Origin: a virus
IMG/VR virus record: IMGVR_UViG_3300024346_000423
Coordinates: 1 to 27,012 of that record
Direction: 5' to 3' (one strand)
Length of the DNA stretch: 27,012 bases
Part shown: positions 16,455-25,233 of the stretch, in pieces
Numbering within the stretch: position 1 is the stretch's first letter
Layout: each line of letters starts with the position of its first letter
Notes under the pieces: model-generated
The model's database searches: none
What the model was told of the DNA's origin: nothing
The model's input: the letters and a program-made list of their open reading frames with translations, nothing else
Translations under genes and position numbers: made by a program

Positions 16455-18575
16455 TTAAGCGTAGGCGCCGGTCGCTTCAACTGCTTTACCAGTTCGTTCG
16501 GTATTGTCGGCTGTTTGTTTTTGGACTCTGACACTTGCTGTCAATTGGTCTTTCATGTCTTGTTGTATCTGCATTTGTTGTTTATTATTGTCTTCTTGAT
16601 TACCATATTGCATCGTTTGGACATTTCTATTCGCCGAAACTACCGCCGCGCTATTATTTGACACTGGTGCTGACATTCCCGCAGTAGTTGCAGGGGTTGA
16701 ACTATCACTACCTCCTAGTAGTTTTTTAACTAACCAATTGTCAGTTAATGCACTAGTAAATTTTCCAATTGCGTCTTTTACATAACTAAATGCCGAAACA
16801 AGTGGCGAAAATATATTAGATAAAAAATCAACTGCCGGTTTTAATATTGCAACTAGGCCATCCACTACAATACCAAATACATTTTTAACACCTATTACAA
16901 GAACGTCTAACACTCGTCCAAAATCTAAATCAAAAATAGCATCTGCCAGAGCACCAAACATGTCTCCTAATTCTGATCCTATCGAAAATATTACTTTGAA
17001 TACATTAACCACAACCCCTATCACAGTCGCCAGTGCTACAAACATTGGCTTTAATACCCAACCAACAACCGTAAACAGTCCACCCAATATATCTGTAGTA
17101 ACTTCCAATATACTAGCCAAATCATCAAACATTGATATAGGTATTGTATCTATTAGTCCAAACAGTTTAGCGGACAACTTGTCCATCATTGCACCCATTT
17201 TTTCTGTTATCTTTTTCAAGTTTTCTTCTGCACGGCCTTTTTTCTTTATTGCTTCTAGTTCTTCGGTGCTCATTTCTGTATACTTTTTGGCATTTTGATA
17301 CATTTCAATCAGTTGTGCGGCCTGAGCATCACCTTGCTGAGCAAGTAATCGTAGTGTAGGTATGTTAGGGCCCATGCTGTTGACCATTGCTTCTGCACTC
17401 TTACCAAATTCACCTGCACTAACGGTGTTGTCTTTTAATTTCTTTTGGAAGTTATCTAGTATAGATACATCACCAAATGGTGCAAACGATTGTCCTAATT
17501 TTGTATTAATAATACTGAGTCCGGCGGCTTCTGCTTCAGCAGTTTGTTTAAATAATTCAGCACCCAATTTACCAAACACTGCTTCCATACCCGAGGCACC
17601 ACGTGCCAATGATTGTATTGCATCTTCGGTGCTTCTACCAAATGCTTTTAATCCTGCTGTTATGATTGGGCTCTTTAACAAGTCGCCCATGCTTTTCTTC
17701 ATGCCTGCCATACTAGCACCAGTGGCCACGCTGACTTCACGTAATGTTTCCAATGTGCCACCATATGCCTTGGCCGCGCCTGCTACTGCGTCAGATCCCT
17801 TAAGACCCTGGGCCGCAAATACATTAATAAAGTCTGCACTGCCTTCAGCTAACTGTTGGCGTGTCATACCAAAAGTACCGTATGTGTCCCTTACTTCTGT
17901 TTGTAGTTTACCAAAGTTGTCTGCGGCTTCTAATCCATTTGCACCCAGTGACCTGTATGCTTGTCCTGTTTTTTCTAATGCATTATAAAATCCAGTCAGT
18001 GACAGTCCAGCACTTGCGGCAATTGCGGCACTTTCCCCTAGTTTGTCACTGTACCCAAGTCCAGCCTCGACCATTTTGTCCATGGAATCAAGATATTCTC
18101 CTACCTTTGCGGCCATAGCTGTAACACCCACTGCCGCCAGCTGTATTGCCATTCCCCATGGGCCACCAAGTAATGCTCCCACACTAGACATGCCACTGCC
18201 CAATGTTTTCATTGCACCATCTACACTAGCTGACCCTTCTGCCATAGCAAATAGTTTTTTGCCAGCGTTCATAGCGCCATGCGTCATTGCAAGTGTAGCC
18301 GAACTTTGACGCTTGGTAGCGTCACCCATGTCCCCAAAGTTTTTCTTTACTGATTGTGCAGTTTCACCCATCTCTGCCAGAGATTCCATTGGGCTTCCGC
18401 CGGCGCCAGATGATCCACTACTGCCTGTGCCAGATTTAGATGTACCGCCAGCCGCACCTACACCTGCAGAACTGCCGCCAAATTTGTCTAGCAGTTTAAG
18501 TAACGTTTCTTCCGTGGCCCATTGTGGGCGTTCGGACCCGTCGGGTAAGGGTATATTTTTAGGTGCGGTTGCCAT
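16455..18575 (-). CDS. Tail tape measure protein (706 aa)
   Basis: Sets tail length and is ejected into the host envelope in contractile-tailed phages. Evidence: a 706-residue, largely helical protein with a Gly/Ser-rich linker near residues 34-62; Ala/Gly/Met-rich helices such as GAMNAGKKLFAMAEG and TLGSGMSSVGALLGGPWGMA; and, at about residues 490-600, several long hydrophobic segments (GLFTVVGWVLKPMFVALATV and following) typical of tape measures. The C-terminal 80 residues are Gln/Asn-rich. It is larger than T4 gp29 (590 aa) and occupies a gp29-like role, but I cannot align it to gp29 by eye. It diverges from gp26/gp51, whose relatives act in tail assembly, which fits a tape measure next to its assembly factors. 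Confidence 0.8.
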   Translation of the reverse strand: MATAPKNIPLPDGSERPQWATEETLLKLLDKFGGSSAGVGAAGGTSKSGTGSSGSSGAGGSPMESLAEMGETAQSVKKNFGDMGDATKRQSSATLAMTHGAMNAGKKLFAMAEGSASVDGAMKTLGSGMSSVGALLGGPWGMAIQLAAVGVTAMAAKVGEYLDSMDKMVEAGLGYSDKLGESAAIAASAGLSLTGFYNALEKTGQAYRSLGANGLEAADNFGKLQTEVRDTYGTFGMTRQQLAEGSADFINVFAAQGLKGSDAVAGAAKAYGGTLETLREVSVATGASMAGMKKSMGDLLKSPIITAGLKAFGRSTEDAIQSLARGASGMEAVFGKLGAELFKQTAEAEAAGLSIINTKLGQSFAPFGDVSILDNFQKKLKDNTVSAGEFGKSAEAMVNSMGPNIPTLRLLAQQGDAQAAQLIEMYQNAKKYTEMSTEELEAIKKKGRAEENLKKITEKMGAMMDKLSAKLFGLIDTIPISMFDDLASILEVTTDILGGLFTVVGWVLKPMFVALATVIGVVVNVFKVIFSIGSELGDMFGALADAIFDLDFGRVLDVLVIGVKNVFGIVVDGLVAILKPAVDFLSNIFSPLVSAFSYVKDAIGKFTSALTDNWLVKKLLGGSDSSTPATTAGMSAPVSNNSAAVVSANRNVQTMQYGNQEDNNKQQMQIQQDMKDQLTASVRVQKQTADNTERTGKAVEATGAYA

Positions 18576-18585
18576 TATCTACGTA

Positions 18586-18593
18586 TATAAATA
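18586..18593 (+). promoter_or_regulatory. T4-type late promoter TATAAATA for gp26-gp51
   Basis: An exact TATAAATA on the plus strand, 38 bases before ATG 18631, with GGAGA 8-12 bases before the start codon. It lies in the 55-base gap shared with the divergent tape-measure gene. Confidence 0.75.
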
Positions 18594-18630: not shown

Positions 18631-19476
18631 ATGGAAAACACAAAAATGAATCCGTTGATTCAATATAACAAACGCCCAGCAAGATATATCAAATTACCCA
18701 GCGGCGGCCAAAGCTATAGTAAACCAATTGATTTGTCGGATTCGGGAGAAATAGCAGTATATCCTATGACTGCTAAAGACGAAATCTTATTAAAAAGTCC
18801 TGATGCATTATTAAACGGCGAAGCACTAAAGCAAGTATTCAGAACATGTGTGCCCGGGATTTCAGATCCAAACGAAGTACCGGCCATTGATATTGATTCA
18901 ATTATGGTGGGTATCAGAATGAGTACTTACGGTGATTTTATGGAAACTGAGTTTGTTTGTCCCGACTGTGTTCCATCGGTAAAGAATCCAGTTAATGTAA
19001 ATCTTGGCAATCTATTGGATACCACTGTGTTTTACACTGGATCTAAAATGGTAGAATTATCGTCGGGTATCAAAGTAACTGTAAAGCCTTACACATTGTC
19101 TGCTCAAAATAAAGTTAGCATTGCTGGCTTTGAAGAAATGGCCAAAGGACAACAAGTAGAAAAAGATGTACAGGATCAATTACAAAAAATTAGATTTGCA
19201 GGTGGAAGTTTTACTAGACTGTTAGATGCAACATTGGATTTAATTTCGTCCGCTATAGAAAAAGTAGAAACTCCTGACCGTCAAGAATTCAATGATAGAA
19301 CAATGATTAGAGAATGGTTAACAACTATCAGTAAGCCTGAATTTGATGTAATTGATAAAACCTTAAAGTCACTAATGGATGCTGGTGTAGATACTACTAT
19401 TAAGTTTACTTGTAGTTCTTGTAAAGTTGAACATACAACTGAACTGCCTATGAATCCCAGCGATTTTTTCGCCTAA
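18631..19476 (+). CDS. 26: gp26-like baseplate/tail assembly protein (281 aa)
   Basis: Belongs to the T4 gp26-type baseplate family. Recognised by YIKLPSGGQSYS (about 19-30), EIAVYPMTAKDEILLKSPDALLNG (part of about 40-63), FRTCVPGISDP and VPAIDIDSIMVGIRMSTYG (about 83-101). Two CxxC pairs, Cys110/Cys113 and Cys261/Cys264, suggest a zinc-binding knuckle. The start at 18631 is chosen over the longer open frame from 18313 because it has a GGAGA site and a late promoter, and because the homologous sequence begins here; the upstream part lies inside the divergent tape-measure gene. In T4, gp26 is needed for baseplate hub formation. The stop follows directly after a TTTTTTC heptamer, and gp51 continues in the -1 frame. 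Confidence 0.88.
   Translation: MENTKMNPLIQYNKRPARYIKLPSGGQSYSKPIDLSDSGEIAVYPMTAKDEILLKSPDALLNGEALKQVFRTCVPGISDPNEVPAIDIDSIMVGIRMSTYGDFMETEFVCPDCVPSVKNPVNVNLGNLLDTTVFYTGSKMVELSSGIKVTVKPYTLSAQNKVSIAGFEEMAKGQQVEKDVQDQLQKIRFAGGSFTRLLDATLDLISSAIEKVETPDRQEFNDRTMIREWLTTISKPEFDVIDKTLKSLMDAGVDTTIKFTCSSCKVEHTTELPMNPSDFFA
19464..19470 (+). promoter_or_regulatory. Putative -1 programmed ribosomal frameshift site TTTTTTC
   Basis: In the gp26 frame the heptamer reads T TTT TTC, the classic X XXY YYZ slippery form, one codon before the gp26 stop. A -1 slip here enters an 81-codon frame (19470-19712) that encodes gp51. The following GCCTAAGGC could form only a very short stem, and I see no convincing pseudoknot. 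The site itself may suffice for low-level slippage. Confidence 0.65.
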
Positions 19477-19715
19477 GGCTTTCTTCATTACTTCAAGAAC
19501 CCGCTGAGTTAGCACAGTTTGTTAGCTCGTTCGAAGAAGATCAGAAAGCCATAAGGAAAGACCTTATGTTACTAGCAATTTATAGCGGAATGTCATTTCA
19601 CGATATTCATGATATGTCTTCAGAAGAACGTGGCTCTTTAGCAGAAGCACTAAAGTTTAGAGCAGAACAAGAAGAGCAAGCTATGAAAGATGCTAAAGCT
19701 AAATCAAGAAGATAA
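19470..19715 (+). CDS. 51: gp51-like tail/baseplate assembly factor, expressed as a -1 frame extension of gp26
   Basis: The frame reads RLRLSSLLQEPAELAQFVSS and continues with FEEDQKAIRKDLMLLAIYSG, MSFHDIHDMSSEERGSLAE and a charged helical end (EEQAMKDAKAKSRR). It resembles the short gp51 (baseplate hub assembly catalyst) that follows gp26 in marine T4-like phages. The frame opens after a TGA only about 20 bases before the slippery site. It contains no ATG, GTG or TTG until ATG 19566, which lies inside the conserved part and would leave only 49 residues. Fusion by frameshift would give a protein of about 361 residues (280 of gp26 plus 81). Initiation at a rare start codon, or at 19566, remains possible. 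Confidence 0.7.
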   Translation, partial: RLRLSSLLQEPAELAQFVSSFEEDQKAIRKDLMLLAIYSGMSFHDIHDMSSEERGSLAEALKFRAEQEEQAMKDAKAKSRR

Positions 19716-19725
19716 TTAGAATTGT

Positions 19726-19743
19726 GGCTGTGTAAACACAGCC
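19726..19743 (+). terminator. Hairpin just after gp51
   Basis: A perfect 7-bp stem GGCTGTG/CACAGCC with a TAAA loop begins 11 bases after the gp51 stop. It lacks a clear T run, so it may be an RNA 3'-end stabiliser or a factor-dependent stop rather than a classical terminator. A second 7-bp stem (19752-19769) follows. Confidence 0.45.
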
Positions 19744-19751
19744 TAATCTTC

Positions 19752-19769
19752 GTGTTACTAACGTAACAC
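19752..19769 (+). terminator. Second hairpin after gp51, followed at a distance by six T residues
   Basis: A perfect 7-bp stem GTGTTAC/GTAACAC with loop TAAC. A TTTTTT run lies 10 bases downstream, too far for a textbook terminator. It could act with the preceding hairpin. Confidence 0.4.
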
Positions 19770-20183: not shown

Positions 20184-20609
20184 TTATTTGTTGAGTATAT
20201 GTGAGCCGTGGACGCGAACTTGAATGTGCCCATTGTACCAATCTGCAGATTCCAATACTTTATTTGTAAATTGTTCTCTTGCTTCTATGTATGAGCATTG
20301 TGCCTTTGATGTACAGTAATATAAAATTTCTCTTAAGAATTTATCTTTGCCTAATATTTCTACATCTTTGTTAAGTTCTATGTTTGACCCGTAGTAGTCT
20401 TGCCAGTCGCTGTCGATTTTGCTTCTAATTTTCTTTTTCTTTTTTGTGCCATTTTTAAGTTTAACTGTTTTATAAGTTGTTTTACTAAATTTTGCTAGTT
20501 TTTTGCCTATGTATTTTCGATTGGTTACGCTATTGGTAATAACGTAAACAAATCCAATACAGTCTATTGGAAGCGTTTCGACTAAATTTCCTTGGTGTGT
20601 CCATGCCAT
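20184..20609 (-). CDS. GIY-YIG-like nuclease (141 aa)
   Basis: The N-terminal part has GFVYVITNSVTNRKYIGKK (about residues 19-37). It has the paired (G)xxY...KYIGK signature of GIY-YIG nucleases, although the first element reads FVYVI rather than GIY. A Lys-rich stretch (KKKKKIRSKIDSDW) follows, then YYGSN (73-77), LGKDKFLREILYYC, a conserved Glu in YIEAREQF (a candidate metal ligand) and WYNGHI near the end. Proteins of this form occur singly in T4-like cyanophage genomes near gp51 and gp46. It may be a free-standing homing-type endonuclease or a domesticated nuclease. It has no gene around it to interrupt, and sits 48 bases after the accessory operon. Its stop abuts the structured non-coding region. 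Confidence 0.75.
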   Translation of the reverse strand: MAWTHQGNLVETLPIDCIGFVYVITNSVTNRKYIGKKLAKFSKTTYKTVKLKNGTKKKKKIRSKIDSDWQDYYGSNIELNKDVEILGKDKFLREILYYCTSKAQCSYIEAREQFTNKVLESADWYNGHIQVRVHGSHILNK

Positions 20610-21299: not shown

Positions 21300-22353
21300 G
21301 AATGATATCCCCAGCTGTTCCAAATTTTATAATGCCATCTTCAATGTATATAGAAGTTTTAAATACATGACGTAAACTCAGTCGTTGACTGAATATTTTT
21401 TGTTTATTCATATAGCTAATGTCGTTTGTCGAATTTACAATGTACTTTTTTTGCCACGTTTTATTATCTATATAATTATGGTATACTGGATTAGTACTCA
21501 TATATTCAAAACTAAACGTCATCATTGCCGCATCATAAAAGAATCTAAAAATTTTATTTTGTGTAATAGCATCTTCTATTTTAGCGGCAGTACTCCAATA
21601 CCATGGTCGAAACAAATCATCTTGGACACCAGTTAATGAATTTGCAGTCCACCAAAATAATTGATTAATGGAACATATCTCAAACGGTGCTTTACTAGCT
21701 AATGTTTCCATGGTATGTAAGTATAACGCTGATCCTTTAACTTTTGATATAAGAGGAATGATTTCTCTCCATGGCGCCATCAAATCTAAATCTGGTTGCA
21801 TAGCAGAAAATCGTAGAGTGTCGCTGGATCCAATACAATAATCTCCCATGTCACCGGTCACTAACATCACATCGTCATCGTTCATCAATGATACATAATC
21901 CAATGGAATCAACGGAATATTAGGTAGTATACTTTTATAAAATAATTCGGGGTATTCTGTTATACTGGTACTAGTTAATGCTACTTTAAATTTACCCTGC
22001 TCTAGGTATTCTTTATACTTGCTGTGTTTTTGCAAAGATATTAATGCAGAAACACTATCAATACCGCCACTATATGTAACTACAATTGTTCTTCCATTTG
22101 CAATAGTAAACACATTATCTGCAATACTATCTAATACAGAATAATATCGATCTTCCCAATCGTTTGTTAAATTTGTCAATAAAAACTTAGGATCTTGCAA
22201 TATGTTCCGGCATGGAATCTCAAGTACATTATCTAACATATTAAAACGATCAACAGGAAATTCAAAATTACCCACAACATTTCTGAAGCTACCGCGCACA
22301 GGCATATTTAGGTAATCTAAATTACTCCAATTAATCCACAGGTATTCTTTCAT
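21286..22353 (-). CDS. PP-loop ATP-pyrophosphatase protein, asparagine-synthase-like (355 aa)
   Basis: A PP-loop, VVTYSGGIDSVSAL, with the SGGxDS core at residues 95-100 after a beta strand, binds ATP and activates a substrate as its adenylate in this superfamily (asparagine synthetase C-domain, GuaA, QueC, TilS and others). There is no N-terminal Cys2 glutaminase domain. Residues 1-88 are unique and aromatic-rich (MKEYLWINWSNLDYLNMP). VTGDMGDYCIGSSDTLRFS (part of about 168-190) may form the substrate side, and FRPWYWSTAAKIEDAI lies toward the C-terminus. Its start overlaps the previous gene's stop (ATGA), so the two PP-loop proteins are made together and may be partners. The substrate is unknown. 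I rate the superfamily call high and any specific enzyme name low. Confidence 0.75.
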   Translation of the reverse strand: MKEYLWINWSNLDYLNMPVRGSFRNVVGNFEFPVDRFNMLDNVLEIPCRNILQDPKFLLTNLTNDWEDRYYSVLDSIADNVFTIANGRTIVVTYSGGIDSVSALISLQKHSKYKEYLEQGKFKVALTSTSITEYPELFYKSILPNIPLIPLDYVSLMNDDDVMLVTGDMGDYCIGSSDTLRFSAMQPDLDLMAPWREIIPLISKVKGSALYLHTMETLASKAPFEICSINQLFWWTANSLTGVQDDLFRPWYWSTAAKIEDAITQNKIFRFFYDAAMMTFSFEYMSTNPVYHNYIDNKTWQKKYIVNSTNDISYMNKQKIFSQRLSLRHVFKTSIYIEDGIIKFGTAGDIIHGNS

Positions 22354-23432
22354 TTTATATATTCGTCTTTTGGAGGTTTTCGTGTAGCAACTAAACTATG
22401 AGTATGTGGTTTAGTAACATACTCAATTAGATCTGGTATAGTAGTAACTACAACTTGTCCTAATGTTTTGCCGGCCGCGGCCACATCTATATGTCTTTGA
22501 AAAATAAGTTCTTTTCCTGAATTAAAATTCTTACCCTGTAGTTGCTCAAATCCAGTATACTTACGTGCTGGAATCATTTCAGGCCATTCTCGTTGAGTCA
22601 TCAATGGCTTATATAACATATGAAATAATCGCCACCACATCCGAACCTGCGGATGCCATCTGACATATACTTCATATACAATATCTTGTACTGCTAAAAA
22701 TTCTGTTACGGTAGGATCGGTGAGATAACTGGCAATTATTTCAGGTGTATACAAATAAAATTTGCTAGTGCCTTCATAACCCATTTCCATCATATGTTGC
22801 ATAATAGGTAACGGTGCTTGCCACCAAACCAGCTTATTTAATGTAGGATCCCAGTCGTAAGTGGGTATTTCTAAATCAGGAGTAACATACTTCCTATATG
22901 GAACCATTACAACATCACCACCAGCCATGATATAACAATAATCAGGGCAAATAAAATCCATAGTAGCACATTGAATAATTGTATGTACTCCGGTTAATCC
23001 ATATTTTGCCGCATACTCGGCACCTTTTGTTTGATAAAATTCGTCTATGTTTAACGGAAATATAATGTATTCGATATTATATTTTTCGCAGAATGCAAAC
23101 GCGGTCTTGATATCGTGATCGTTAACATTGTTGCCTTCTTCATCAAACATGCTTAAAATAACAACTTTAAATGGAATACCTGCTTCTCTAAACGCTAAAC
23201 ATGCCATCTGACTGTCACTGCCGCCGCTGAGTCCAATGCAAATAGGTTTAGTGGCCTTAGATGCAATTAATTTTGCAGTAATAATACATTCTTCTCTGAA
23301 ACGTTTAACTGGGCGGGTAACATAGCCTAGCTGTATTTTATACTGCTTTTCAGGATCCGGGTGGTTATACCATTCATCTCCGAAACCCCATTTAAAATGA
23401 TTGTTTTCGGTGTATTCAAATCTCAAATTCAT
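22350..23432 (-). CDS. PP-loop ATP-pyrophosphatase protein (360 aa)
   Basis: The start at ATG 23432 (MNLRFEYTENN) is preferred to the TTG at 23468, reducing overlap with the upstream gene to 17 bases. The core PICIGLSGGSDSQMACLAF places SGGSDS at residues 69-74, followed by a strand and helix (FKVVILSM, HDIKTAFAFCEKYNIEYIIF), the Rossmann-like layout of PP-loop synthetases. The C-terminal half has many Trp and Met residues (WDPTLNKLVWWQAPLP, VRMWWRLFHMLYKPLM), and the end is basic. A glutamine-hydrolysing domain is absent. It could be an amide or thio-forming adenylating enzyme. Pairing with a second PP-loop gene, a dioxygenase and an acetyltransferase suggests a biosynthetic pathway. Confidence 0.75.
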   Translation of the reverse strand: MNLRFEYTENNHFKWGFGDEWYNHPDPEKQYKIQLGYVTRPVKRFREECIITAKLIASKATKPICIGLSGGSDSQMACLAFREAGIPFKVVILSMFDEEGNNVNDHDIKTAFAFCEKYNIEYIIFPLNIDEFYQTKGAEYAAKYGLTGVHTIIQCATMDFICPDYCYIMAGGDVVMVPYRKYVTPDLEIPTYDWDPTLNKLVWWQAPLPIMQHMMEMGYEGTSKFYLYTPEIIASYLTDPTVTEFLAVQDIVYEVYVRWHPQVRMWWRLFHMLYKPLMTQREWPEMIPARKYTGFEQLQGKNFNSGKELIFQRHIDVAAAGKTLGQVVVTTIPDLIEYVTKPHTHSLVATRKPPKDEYIK

Positions 23433-23949
23433 AATGTCTATTCCACCACTGTGTGTTTTTAAAACCAACTGATCTAATTGGCCGTTTTAAGTCTAACTGT
23501 AAATCCCATATGAGGTAAGATAAAAAAGTATTGCAATTATAATTTAATAACTCAAATTTTTCAATAGGATATTTTTTAACTGAATAAAGTAAGTCACTGT
23601 AATCAACAGCCGGACAACTGTCCACAACATGTACCTTGTTACCAAACCATTGACCATTATACAAACGGTCGCTGATAAATGCGGCACGCTCTTCAATATT
23701 AGTTATATCTTTTGCCCCACTGTATATAGTACGACATTGTTGCACATCTAATGTTTCTTGGTCTGTGACTTCTGCCACAAGCCAGTTTTTATGCTGGGTA
23801 TTATAACATGCAAACCAGGAATGCGTTCCACCTATATACCCTTTAAAATGCCAGGCCTTGGCATGCAAGTAATAAGACTTGGTCTTATCTAAAATTAAGC
23901 CTGGATCTTCACTGATATCACATTCTCGCCAATCTTTAAACAGTTGCAT
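23416..23949 (-). CDS. Small protein with possible permuted papain-like Cys/His pair (177 aa)
   Basis: ATG 23949 (MQLFKDWRECDISED) is chosen over an upstream ATG at 24030, which would overlap the dioxygenase by 95 bases and add an unrelated segment. An AAAGAAG stretch touches the start. Visible features are GYIGGTHSWFACY (His43) early and, about 95 residues later, NYNCNTFLSYLIW (Cys139). A His in a beta strand followed later by an NCxxF helix is the order in circularly permuted papain-like families (LRAT, PPPDE/DeSI, YiiX-type). These act as thiol peptidases, amidases or acyltransferases. The match is by pattern only. No signal peptide is present, so it should be cytoplasmic. It overlaps the dioxygenase stop by 14 bases and the PP-loop start by 17, deep within the operon. 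Confidence 0.6.
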   Translation of the reverse strand: MQLFKDWRECDISEDPGLILDKTKSYYLHAKAWHFKGYIGGTHSWFACYNTQHKNWLVAEVTDQETLDVQQCRTIYSGAKDITNIEERAAFISDRLYNGQWFGNKVHVVDSCPAVDYSDLLYSVKKYPIEKFELLNYNCNTFLSYLIWDLQLDLKRPIRSVGFKNTQWWNRHYEFEI

Positions 23950-24781
23950 CTTCTTTATTAAATTTATTATAAGGACTGGCAGGAGTTTGTTCCATTTCGT
24001 AATAGTTAATATGCTGACGATCGTAAGCACCTTGCCAGTTTTTTAAATCCTTGTCCCAATCTCCACAAGGAGCAGGATCATGTAACATATAATTATAGTG
24101 GTCTTCGCCTGCTACCATTACAGTGCTTTCTGGACTTAGATTTAAAATGGGTTTACATTCAGTAGACGCAAAAATCATACCCATAGCCACTCTTGGGGTG
24201 GTTGCTTGATTATCTGCGCTACCGTGTATAGTATAAGGACTATGCAACATAACATGCCCGGCCGGCACCTTAGTTTTAATACGTTCTTTTGGGACATCAA
24301 TATCTACAGTTTGTCCCCTCATTAATAAATTAGTACTTGTTTTAACATCTTTATGTCTGTGCTGGAATACTCGATGGCTACCTTTGACATACTCTAAACT
24401 TCCGTGTTCTTCAGTTACATCACTAAATGCAAACCAAGCAGTAACAGCCAAATGTTTTTTATCAAAATTCCAATAAGTGGCATCTTGATGAAAGCTAACG
24501 TCTTTTTTATCACCGGGATGTTTGACCCAAAATAAGGTATCCCAACAATGTATATTTGGTCCTATTAACTGTGATAGATATTCTATTAATTTTGGGTGCT
24601 TACTAATTTTATCTACAAATGGAAATAATACATTACTTTTGCAACGATAATCACTTTTCATTAGTTTGATATTTTCTTCAGCATCCATAACCAGTTTGCA
24701 AAATTCAGAGGCCTCTTCTCGAGACATGACTTCTAGTGGCCCTAATACACCGTTTAGTTCAAATTCTTCTTTTAATGTCAT
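23936..24781 (-). CDS. Phytanoyl-CoA dioxygenase-family Fe(II)/2-oxoglutarate oxygenase (281 aa)
   Basis: The metal site is readable: FHQDATYW gives His98-x-Asp100, and IHGSADN gives the distal His186. Arg197 in TTPRVAM is placed to bind 2-oxoglutarate. The HxD acid is present, which argues for hydroxylation; related SyrB2-type halogenases replace the Asp with Gly or Ala. LEYVKGSHR (130-137) and AGHVMLHSPYTIHGS are standard PhyH-family landmarks. Length is typical. Its ATG overlaps the acetyltransferase stop (ATGA), so expression is coupled. Phage members of this family occur in marine T4-like genomes, mostly without known substrates. Here the neighbours suggest hydroxylation of an amino-acid-, sugar- or lipid-derived small molecule, but this is inference. 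Confidence 0.88.
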   Translation of the reverse strand: MTLKEEFELNGVLGPLEVMSREEASEFCKLVMDAEENIKLMKSDYRCKSNVLFPFVDKISKHPKLIEYLSQLIGPNIHCWDTLFWVKHPGDKKDVSFHQDATYWNFDKKHLAVTAWFAFSDVTEEHGSLEYVKGSHRVFQHRHKDVKTSTNLLMRGQTVDIDVPKERIKTKVPAGHVMLHSPYTIHGSADNQATTPRVAMGMIFASTECKPILNLSPESTVMVAGEDHYNYMLHDPAPCGDWDKDLKNWQGAYDRQHINYYEMEQTPASPYNKFNKEDATV

Positions 24782-25233
24782 AGTGTTTTTTCCATTCTTA
24801 AAAAATCAGGCTTCATCCCAACTGCTTCACAACTGGCTTGTCTTATAACGTTATCAACATGCACATGACTAGCCAGACGCTTACTACCTTCGTTTTTAAC
24901 AACGTTTTCGAAATGCTTATGAAGCATCATATATATTCCACGACGACGGTAGTTATCGTCGATACAACTTAATACAATCCATGCAGTTTTATAAGTGTCT
25001 TCTTGTGTATCATATACAATTGCACCTACCACCGTGTTGTCAATGACAGCATAAACTGCTTTACTGTTATTAGTTCCAAATATAAAGGAGGCAGAATGTC
25101 CGTTTTCTATTAACGCCGCATAATTTCGTAGAAAAAACGGAGTAACAATACTTCCGCCAATTTTCTTAGCCCAGCTGATAGTAACATCAGCGCCTGTTTT
25201 ATCTTTTTCTGTTGCGATAACTGTGCTAGTCAT
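24778..25233 (-). CDS. GNAT-family N-acetyltransferase (151 aa)
   Basis: Transfers an acyl group, usually acetyl, from coenzyme A to an amine. The core is seen in AVIDNTVVGAIVYDTQ (beta strands 2-3), WIVLSCIDDNYRRRGIYMMLHKHF, where RRRGIYMML is the R/Q-x-x-G-x-G/A acetyl-CoA pyrophosphate loop (about 96-104), and HVHVDNVIRQASCEAVGMKPD, the usual C-terminal helix and strand in which a residue falls out of alignment with CoA. Length is typical for a single-domain GNAT. It begins one base after the gp46 stop and overlaps the dioxygenase start by four bases. The substrate cannot be told; the context favours small-molecule modification over protein acetylation. Confidence 0.85.
   Translation of the reverse strand: MTSTVIATEKDKTGADVTISWAKKIGGSIVTPFFLRNYAALIENGHSASFIFGTNNSKAVYAVIDNTVVGAIVYDTQEDTYKTAWIVLSCIDDNYRRRGIYMMLHKHFENVVKNEGSKRLASHVHVDNVIRQASCEAVGMKPDFLRMEKTL

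Follow-up and report, generated by a model that had tools for sequence, protein, structure and literature searches.

A viral gp26 gene probably encodes a second, gp51-tailed tail-assembly chaperone through -1 frameshifting

How a gp51-like reading frame that has no start of its own comes to be translated is the question raised by the gp26 gene of IMG/VR virus record IMGVR_UViG_3300024346_000423. The window, by which we mean the whole 27,012-nucleotide stretch that was analyzed (positions 1 to 27,012 of that record), carries the features listed in Table 1. The original prediction, made from the sequence alone, held that gp26 and a gp26-gp51 fusion arise from one message and are the functional counterpart of the phage lambda proteins G and GT. 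We conclude that gp26 and the -1 open reading frame (ORF) behind it very probably form a single tail-assembly chaperone gene, with a short product, gp26, and a long product, gp26-51 (361 aa), made by -1 frameshifting. Two chaperone forms are probable because ribosomes would sometimes slip back one base near the end of the gene. We infer that the majority of ribosomes would stop at 19474 and release a 281-aa short form, that a minority would move back by one nucleotide at T TTT TTC, yielding the 361-aa form with a two-helix, gp51-type domain at its end, and that both forms would work on the tape measure while the tail is being assembled, in the manner of lambda G and GT.

Table 1. Features at and around the gp26-51 junction, in window coordinates.
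Feature	Position	Strand	Basis
Tape-measure protein, 706 aa, divergent neighbor	16455..18575	-	via L011 homolog
Putative T4-type late promoter box TATAAATA	18586..18593	+	exact match upstream of gp26
gp26, predicted short tail-assembly chaperone (TAC-N), 281 aa	18631..19476	+	PF12322, phrog_150, phage relatives, AlphaFold2
-1 open frame, with predicted TAC-C gp51-like C-terminal extension at 19464-19712	19443..19715	+	frames, homology, AlphaFold2
Slippery heptamer T TTT TTC	19464..19470	+	sequence; same place in family junctions
Zero-frame stop TAA, one codon past heptamer	19474..19476	+	sequence
Possible downstream RNA hairpins, candidate stimulators	19471..19530	+	RNA fold; weak in window
Hairpin immediately 3' of gp51 stop, possible transcript end	19724..19744	+	RNA fold

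The junction is built as a frameshift site had been proposed to be. TTTTTTC lies in the gp26 phase, where it encodes F279-F280 and is followed by GCC and then by TAA, such that gp26 ends in PSDFFA. From the heptamer onward, the -1 frame reads FFRLRLSSLLQEPAELAQFVSSF... and runs for 81 codons after the FF pair, and therefore the joined gp26-51 protein would be 361 aa; the open frame and the size of the fusion thus came out as predicted. The claim that no ATG, GTG, or TTG precedes the conserved part also held, as the first such codon is ATG 19566, 34 codons beyond the slip and already within the conserved domain. AlphaFold2 models the -1 extension as two long helices (pLDDT 93).

Whether the junction could be due to chance was judged from relatives, and the comparisons that the original prediction called for all agree with it. 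Junctions were collected from jumbo phages, P-SSM2, S-PM2, HTVC008M, KVP40, Aeh1, and about 65 IMG/VR contigs, giving 83 distinct sequences. In 82 of these, with gp26 identity down to about 25%, T TTT TT(C/T/A) sits in phase at a common position, and the one exception (L098) carries A AAT TTT, another slippery pattern. As a control, the TTTTTT(C/T/A) form occurs in only 20 of 131 (15%) other Phe-Phe pairs of the same loci. All relatives have an open -1 frame, of 59 to 97 codons (median, 78; quartiles, 78 and 79), and the zero-frame stop always falls 0 to 11 codons past the heptamer. Because the junctions are kin by descent rather than independent events, the argument rests on constancy across about 25 to 35% identity and not on the counts. 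Across that range, the conserved in-phase heptamer is not chance. Moreover, the -1 ORFs of the close relatives L115 and L112 differ by 3, 4, and 18 substitutions at the three codon positions, as expected of coding DNA under purifying selection.

A homopolymer at the junction and an ORF without its own start might suggest that the -1 ORF is what is left of a formerly independent gene 51 in decay or that misassembly of the T run has split one long gene. Two other assemblies (L009 and L010), however, have a junction identical to that of the window, and the same -1 relation recurs in every relative, which excludes a sequencing indel. Neither the purifying selection on the -1 frame nor its constant length fits decay. 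The relatives refute both versions, and we assign them next to no probability.

Alternatively, gp51 might be a separate small protein made by termination-reinitiation or from an internal start, with the T run incidental. The slip is followed by an ATG within 5 codons in cyanophages, KVP40, and 121Q, in some cases overlapping the stop as TAATG, and these phages might additionally make free gp51 by reinitiation. In the window, TAAGGA stands 5 nt ahead of ATG 19566, from which a 49-aa fragment could be made. That ATG falls inside the long helix (model residues 13-41), however, and initiation there would cut it; moreover, L112 lacks a TAAGGA-type signal like that seen upstream of ATG 19566 in the window. 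Unlike cyanophages, KVP40, and 121Q, the window has no ATG shortly after the gp26 stop, and most relatives likewise lack a start near the junction: a start codon lies within 12 codons of the slip in 28% of nonredundant relatives and is accompanied by a 4-nt Shine-Dalgarno match in 9%. A usable early start is therefore not conserved, in keeping with the prediction. Finally, a separate gp51 leaves unexplained both the near-universal heptamer and the conserved -1 coding upstream of the starts that do exist. We consider it very unlikely.

Whether RNA signals assist the predicted frameshift is less uniform. In the window, the nearest structure is weak (45-nt fold, z +0.5; 60-nt fold, z -1.4), and the better hairpin begins about 35 nt from the heptamer, whereas in L112 and L115 a hairpin lies no more than about 6 nt away. 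When 45-nt folds were slid along 61 nonredundant junctions, mean z was -0.74, -1.07, and -0.97 at offsets of -3, +7, and +17 nt from the heptamer, compared with about -0.5 to +0.3 elsewhere, and 21 to 30% of junctions had z below -2 at the peak. A folding peak just past the heptamer fits a downstream stimulator. No enrichment for an upstream Shine-Dalgarno stimulator was found across the family. We note that in the cyanophages P-SSM2 and S-PM2, GGAGGG precedes TTTTTTC by about 10 nt, within the stretch encoding the motif LEGLQSFF, and that this sequence resembles the dnaX frameshift stimulator.

T4 gp26 and gp51 are both complete PF12322 paralogs encoded by two divergent genes, and gp51 is the long form, with an extra C-terminal segment of about 48 aa. 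The -1 ORF by itself had no significant match to a Pfam or PHROG family, and its gp51 identity therefore needed profiles: by hhalign, a profile of the jumbo phage -1 ORFs matched one of the gp51 C terminus (built from cyanophage, HTVC008M, Aeh1, KVP40, and T4) with an E value of 3.3e-5 and a probability of 72% over 35 columns. Thus, the frame had been called a recognizable gp51, and it is homologous, but only to the C-terminal 50 aa or so of the T4 protein and only as seen through profiles. Given the shared PF12322 domain and the C-terminal profile match, the frameshift product would be the counterpart of T4 gp51, and the normal product that of T4 gp26. Genes 26 and 51 of T4 had been described as adjacent and separate, and they are indeed two adjacent genes, but they are divergent and paralogous; each has its own start, and GAG TTC TTT GAG stands in place of the heptamer.

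Copy number and heptamer go together among the phages checked. The heptamer is absent from the end of the short copy in all five phages with two PF12322 copies (T4, Krischvirus FL15, Aeromonas 31, RB43, and KARL-1) and present in all 11 one-copy phages. The window contains one PF12322 match and no second full-length, T4-type gene 51 with its own start; the record is a 27-kb fragment, and one-copy relatives with whole genomes agree. In Aeromonas phage Aeh1, we observed a gp51 C-terminal -1 ORF behind TTTTTTC (L028, 1325-1534, minus strand), and gp51 had been listed as missing from that phage (PMC3037559). The gp51 proteins of cyanophages and vibriophages have been reported to lack the first 200 or so residues (PMC3037559).

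What the products do is suggested by family and by neighborhood. gp26 matched PF12322 (T4_baseplate) with an E value of 1.5e-22 and 80.8 bits against a cutoff of 24.5, matched phrog_150 at 2.5e-26, and had 62 relatives in phage records at identities of up to 34%, in jumbo phages such as RaK2, PA5oct, Munch, Atu_ph07, and Phosso. The AlphaFold2 model of gp26 is confident (pLDDT 93). Its search of the PDB with Foldseek returned no matches, a sequence search of solved structures gave chance matches only, and the best named Foldseek matches in a viral library were T4-like baseplate hub assembly proteins. Alignment by VIA-align with the HK97 tail-assembly chaperone 2OB9 covered 102 of 107 residues with a Z score of 6.8, a level at which unrelated helical matches also score, and kinship of fold is suggestive only. 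The neighbor that lies head-to-head with gp26 was identified through L011: the two neighboring proteins are 60% identical over 604 aa, and that of L011 matches tape-measure PHROG 58 at 1.7e-11. A tblastn search of phage records with the window's tape-measure protein found no match. The order of portal, tape measure, and gp26 is shared with RaK2 and PA5oct.

In lambda, a -1 frameshift on GGGAAAG near the end of the tail chaperone gene, beside the tape-measure gene, gives G and a minor long form, GT. The window has the same arrangement of a predicted frameshift site near the chaperone gene end with a tape-measure gene adjoining. Unlike that of lambda, its heptamer is TTTTTTC and its tape-measure gene is on the opposite strand; the likeness proposed is one of architecture. 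Thus, the chaperone pair proposed to sit next to the tape measure is adjacent to it, but the tape-measure gene is divergent rather than downstream on the same message. A further alternative is that frameshifting occurs and yields a baseplate hub component instead of a tape-measure chaperone. Its basis is the annotation "gp26 baseplate hub subunit" and T4 genetics, which places gp26 with hub assembly; a review reports genetic support for a place of gp26 in the hub (PMC3004832). The same review, however, has gp26 and gp51 in its table as hub assembly chaperones and gives gp51 as absent from the particle (PMC3004832). Furthermore, the tape-measure gene adjoins gp26, and a short and a long form are the typical architecture of tail chaperones. 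We consider a hub component improbable and favor a frameshifted tail-assembly chaperone.

The gene appears to be transcribed by itself. TATAAATA has a single exact match on the plus strand of the window, and of 84 family sequences, 65 have TATAAAT-like boxes in the 120 nt ahead of gp26. The segment past the gp51 stop folds strongly (19716-19760, -12.7 kcal/mol, z -3.1); the hairpin has no T run and was not flagged by a terminator scan of the window. With a putative late-promoter box at 18586 and a strong hairpin past the gp51 stop, gp26-51 therefore resembles a single-gene late unit.

Other features were noted in the surroundings. A Polynucleobacter-1 RNA (Rfam RF01718; 20032-20170, minus strand, 84 bits) is convergent with gp26-51 and similarly placed in L009, L011, L112, L113, L034, and L037. 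The window, L009, and L112 have a SegE-like gene directly 5' of this RNA, and a different gene takes that place in L034; the gene in the window encodes a SegE-type GIY-YIG endonuclease (20184-20609, minus strand; PF19835, 2.1e-30). Adjoining genes for a PhyH dioxygenase and a GNAT acetyltransferase (23936-25233, minus strand) lie near a weakly NAD-synthase-like gene (22350-23468), and the three are possible modification genes.

Frameshifted chaperones are not new among T4-related phages. Vladimirov and colleagues reportedly found the frameshift conserved in several T4-like groups, with T4 itself using genes 26 and 51. In contrast to the T4-like chaperones, the gene described here would stand alone as a late unit and is divergent from the tape-measure gene; its extension is also longer, at about 78 to 83 codons compared with 59 to 62 in cyanophages and KVP40. 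Like the predicted chaperone of the window, those reported for T4-like phages (Vladimirov, Gautam & Davidson 2022, Virology 566:9-15, as cited in PMC12846349 and PMC10885494) belong to PF12322, with short and long forms and a poly-T site outside T4 itself. One citing paper describes such slippery poly-T runs as an established feature of the TAC-N genes in T4-like phages (PMC12846349), and another notes that some of these phages have a short gene and a long gene instead (PMC10885494). Given the earlier report, the window gene is a well-supported further example and not a new mechanism. Phage Adele (Vandenendeviridae/Andersonviridae) likewise has a chaperone in which -1 frameshifting at a T-rich site is conserved, and the downstream ORF in such phages is annotated apart or not at all; unlike here, the invariant motif is GTTTTT and the phage group is different (PMC12846349).

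What may be new is the reach of frameshifting into jumbo lineages of the RaK2, PA5oct, and Atu_ph07 types. For and against in equal measure, we entertain the broader idea that the frameshift is ancestral across T4-related phages, including jumbo lineages in which it had gone unrecognized, that genes 26 and 51 of T4 are a derived duplication that did away with it, and that frameshifted chaperones are what all the "baseplate hub gp26" genes of RaK2-, PA5oct-, and Atu_ph07-type phages encode. Frameshifting would correct the annotation of many phages, where no long form is given and gp26 is labeled a hub subunit. It would also supply a mechanism for an old puzzle, the truncated gp51 of cyanophages and vibriophages and the "missing" gp51 of Aeh1 (PMC3037559). 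Ultimately, these phages would offer a natural comparison between frameshifting and gene duplication as ways of making the same pair of proteins.
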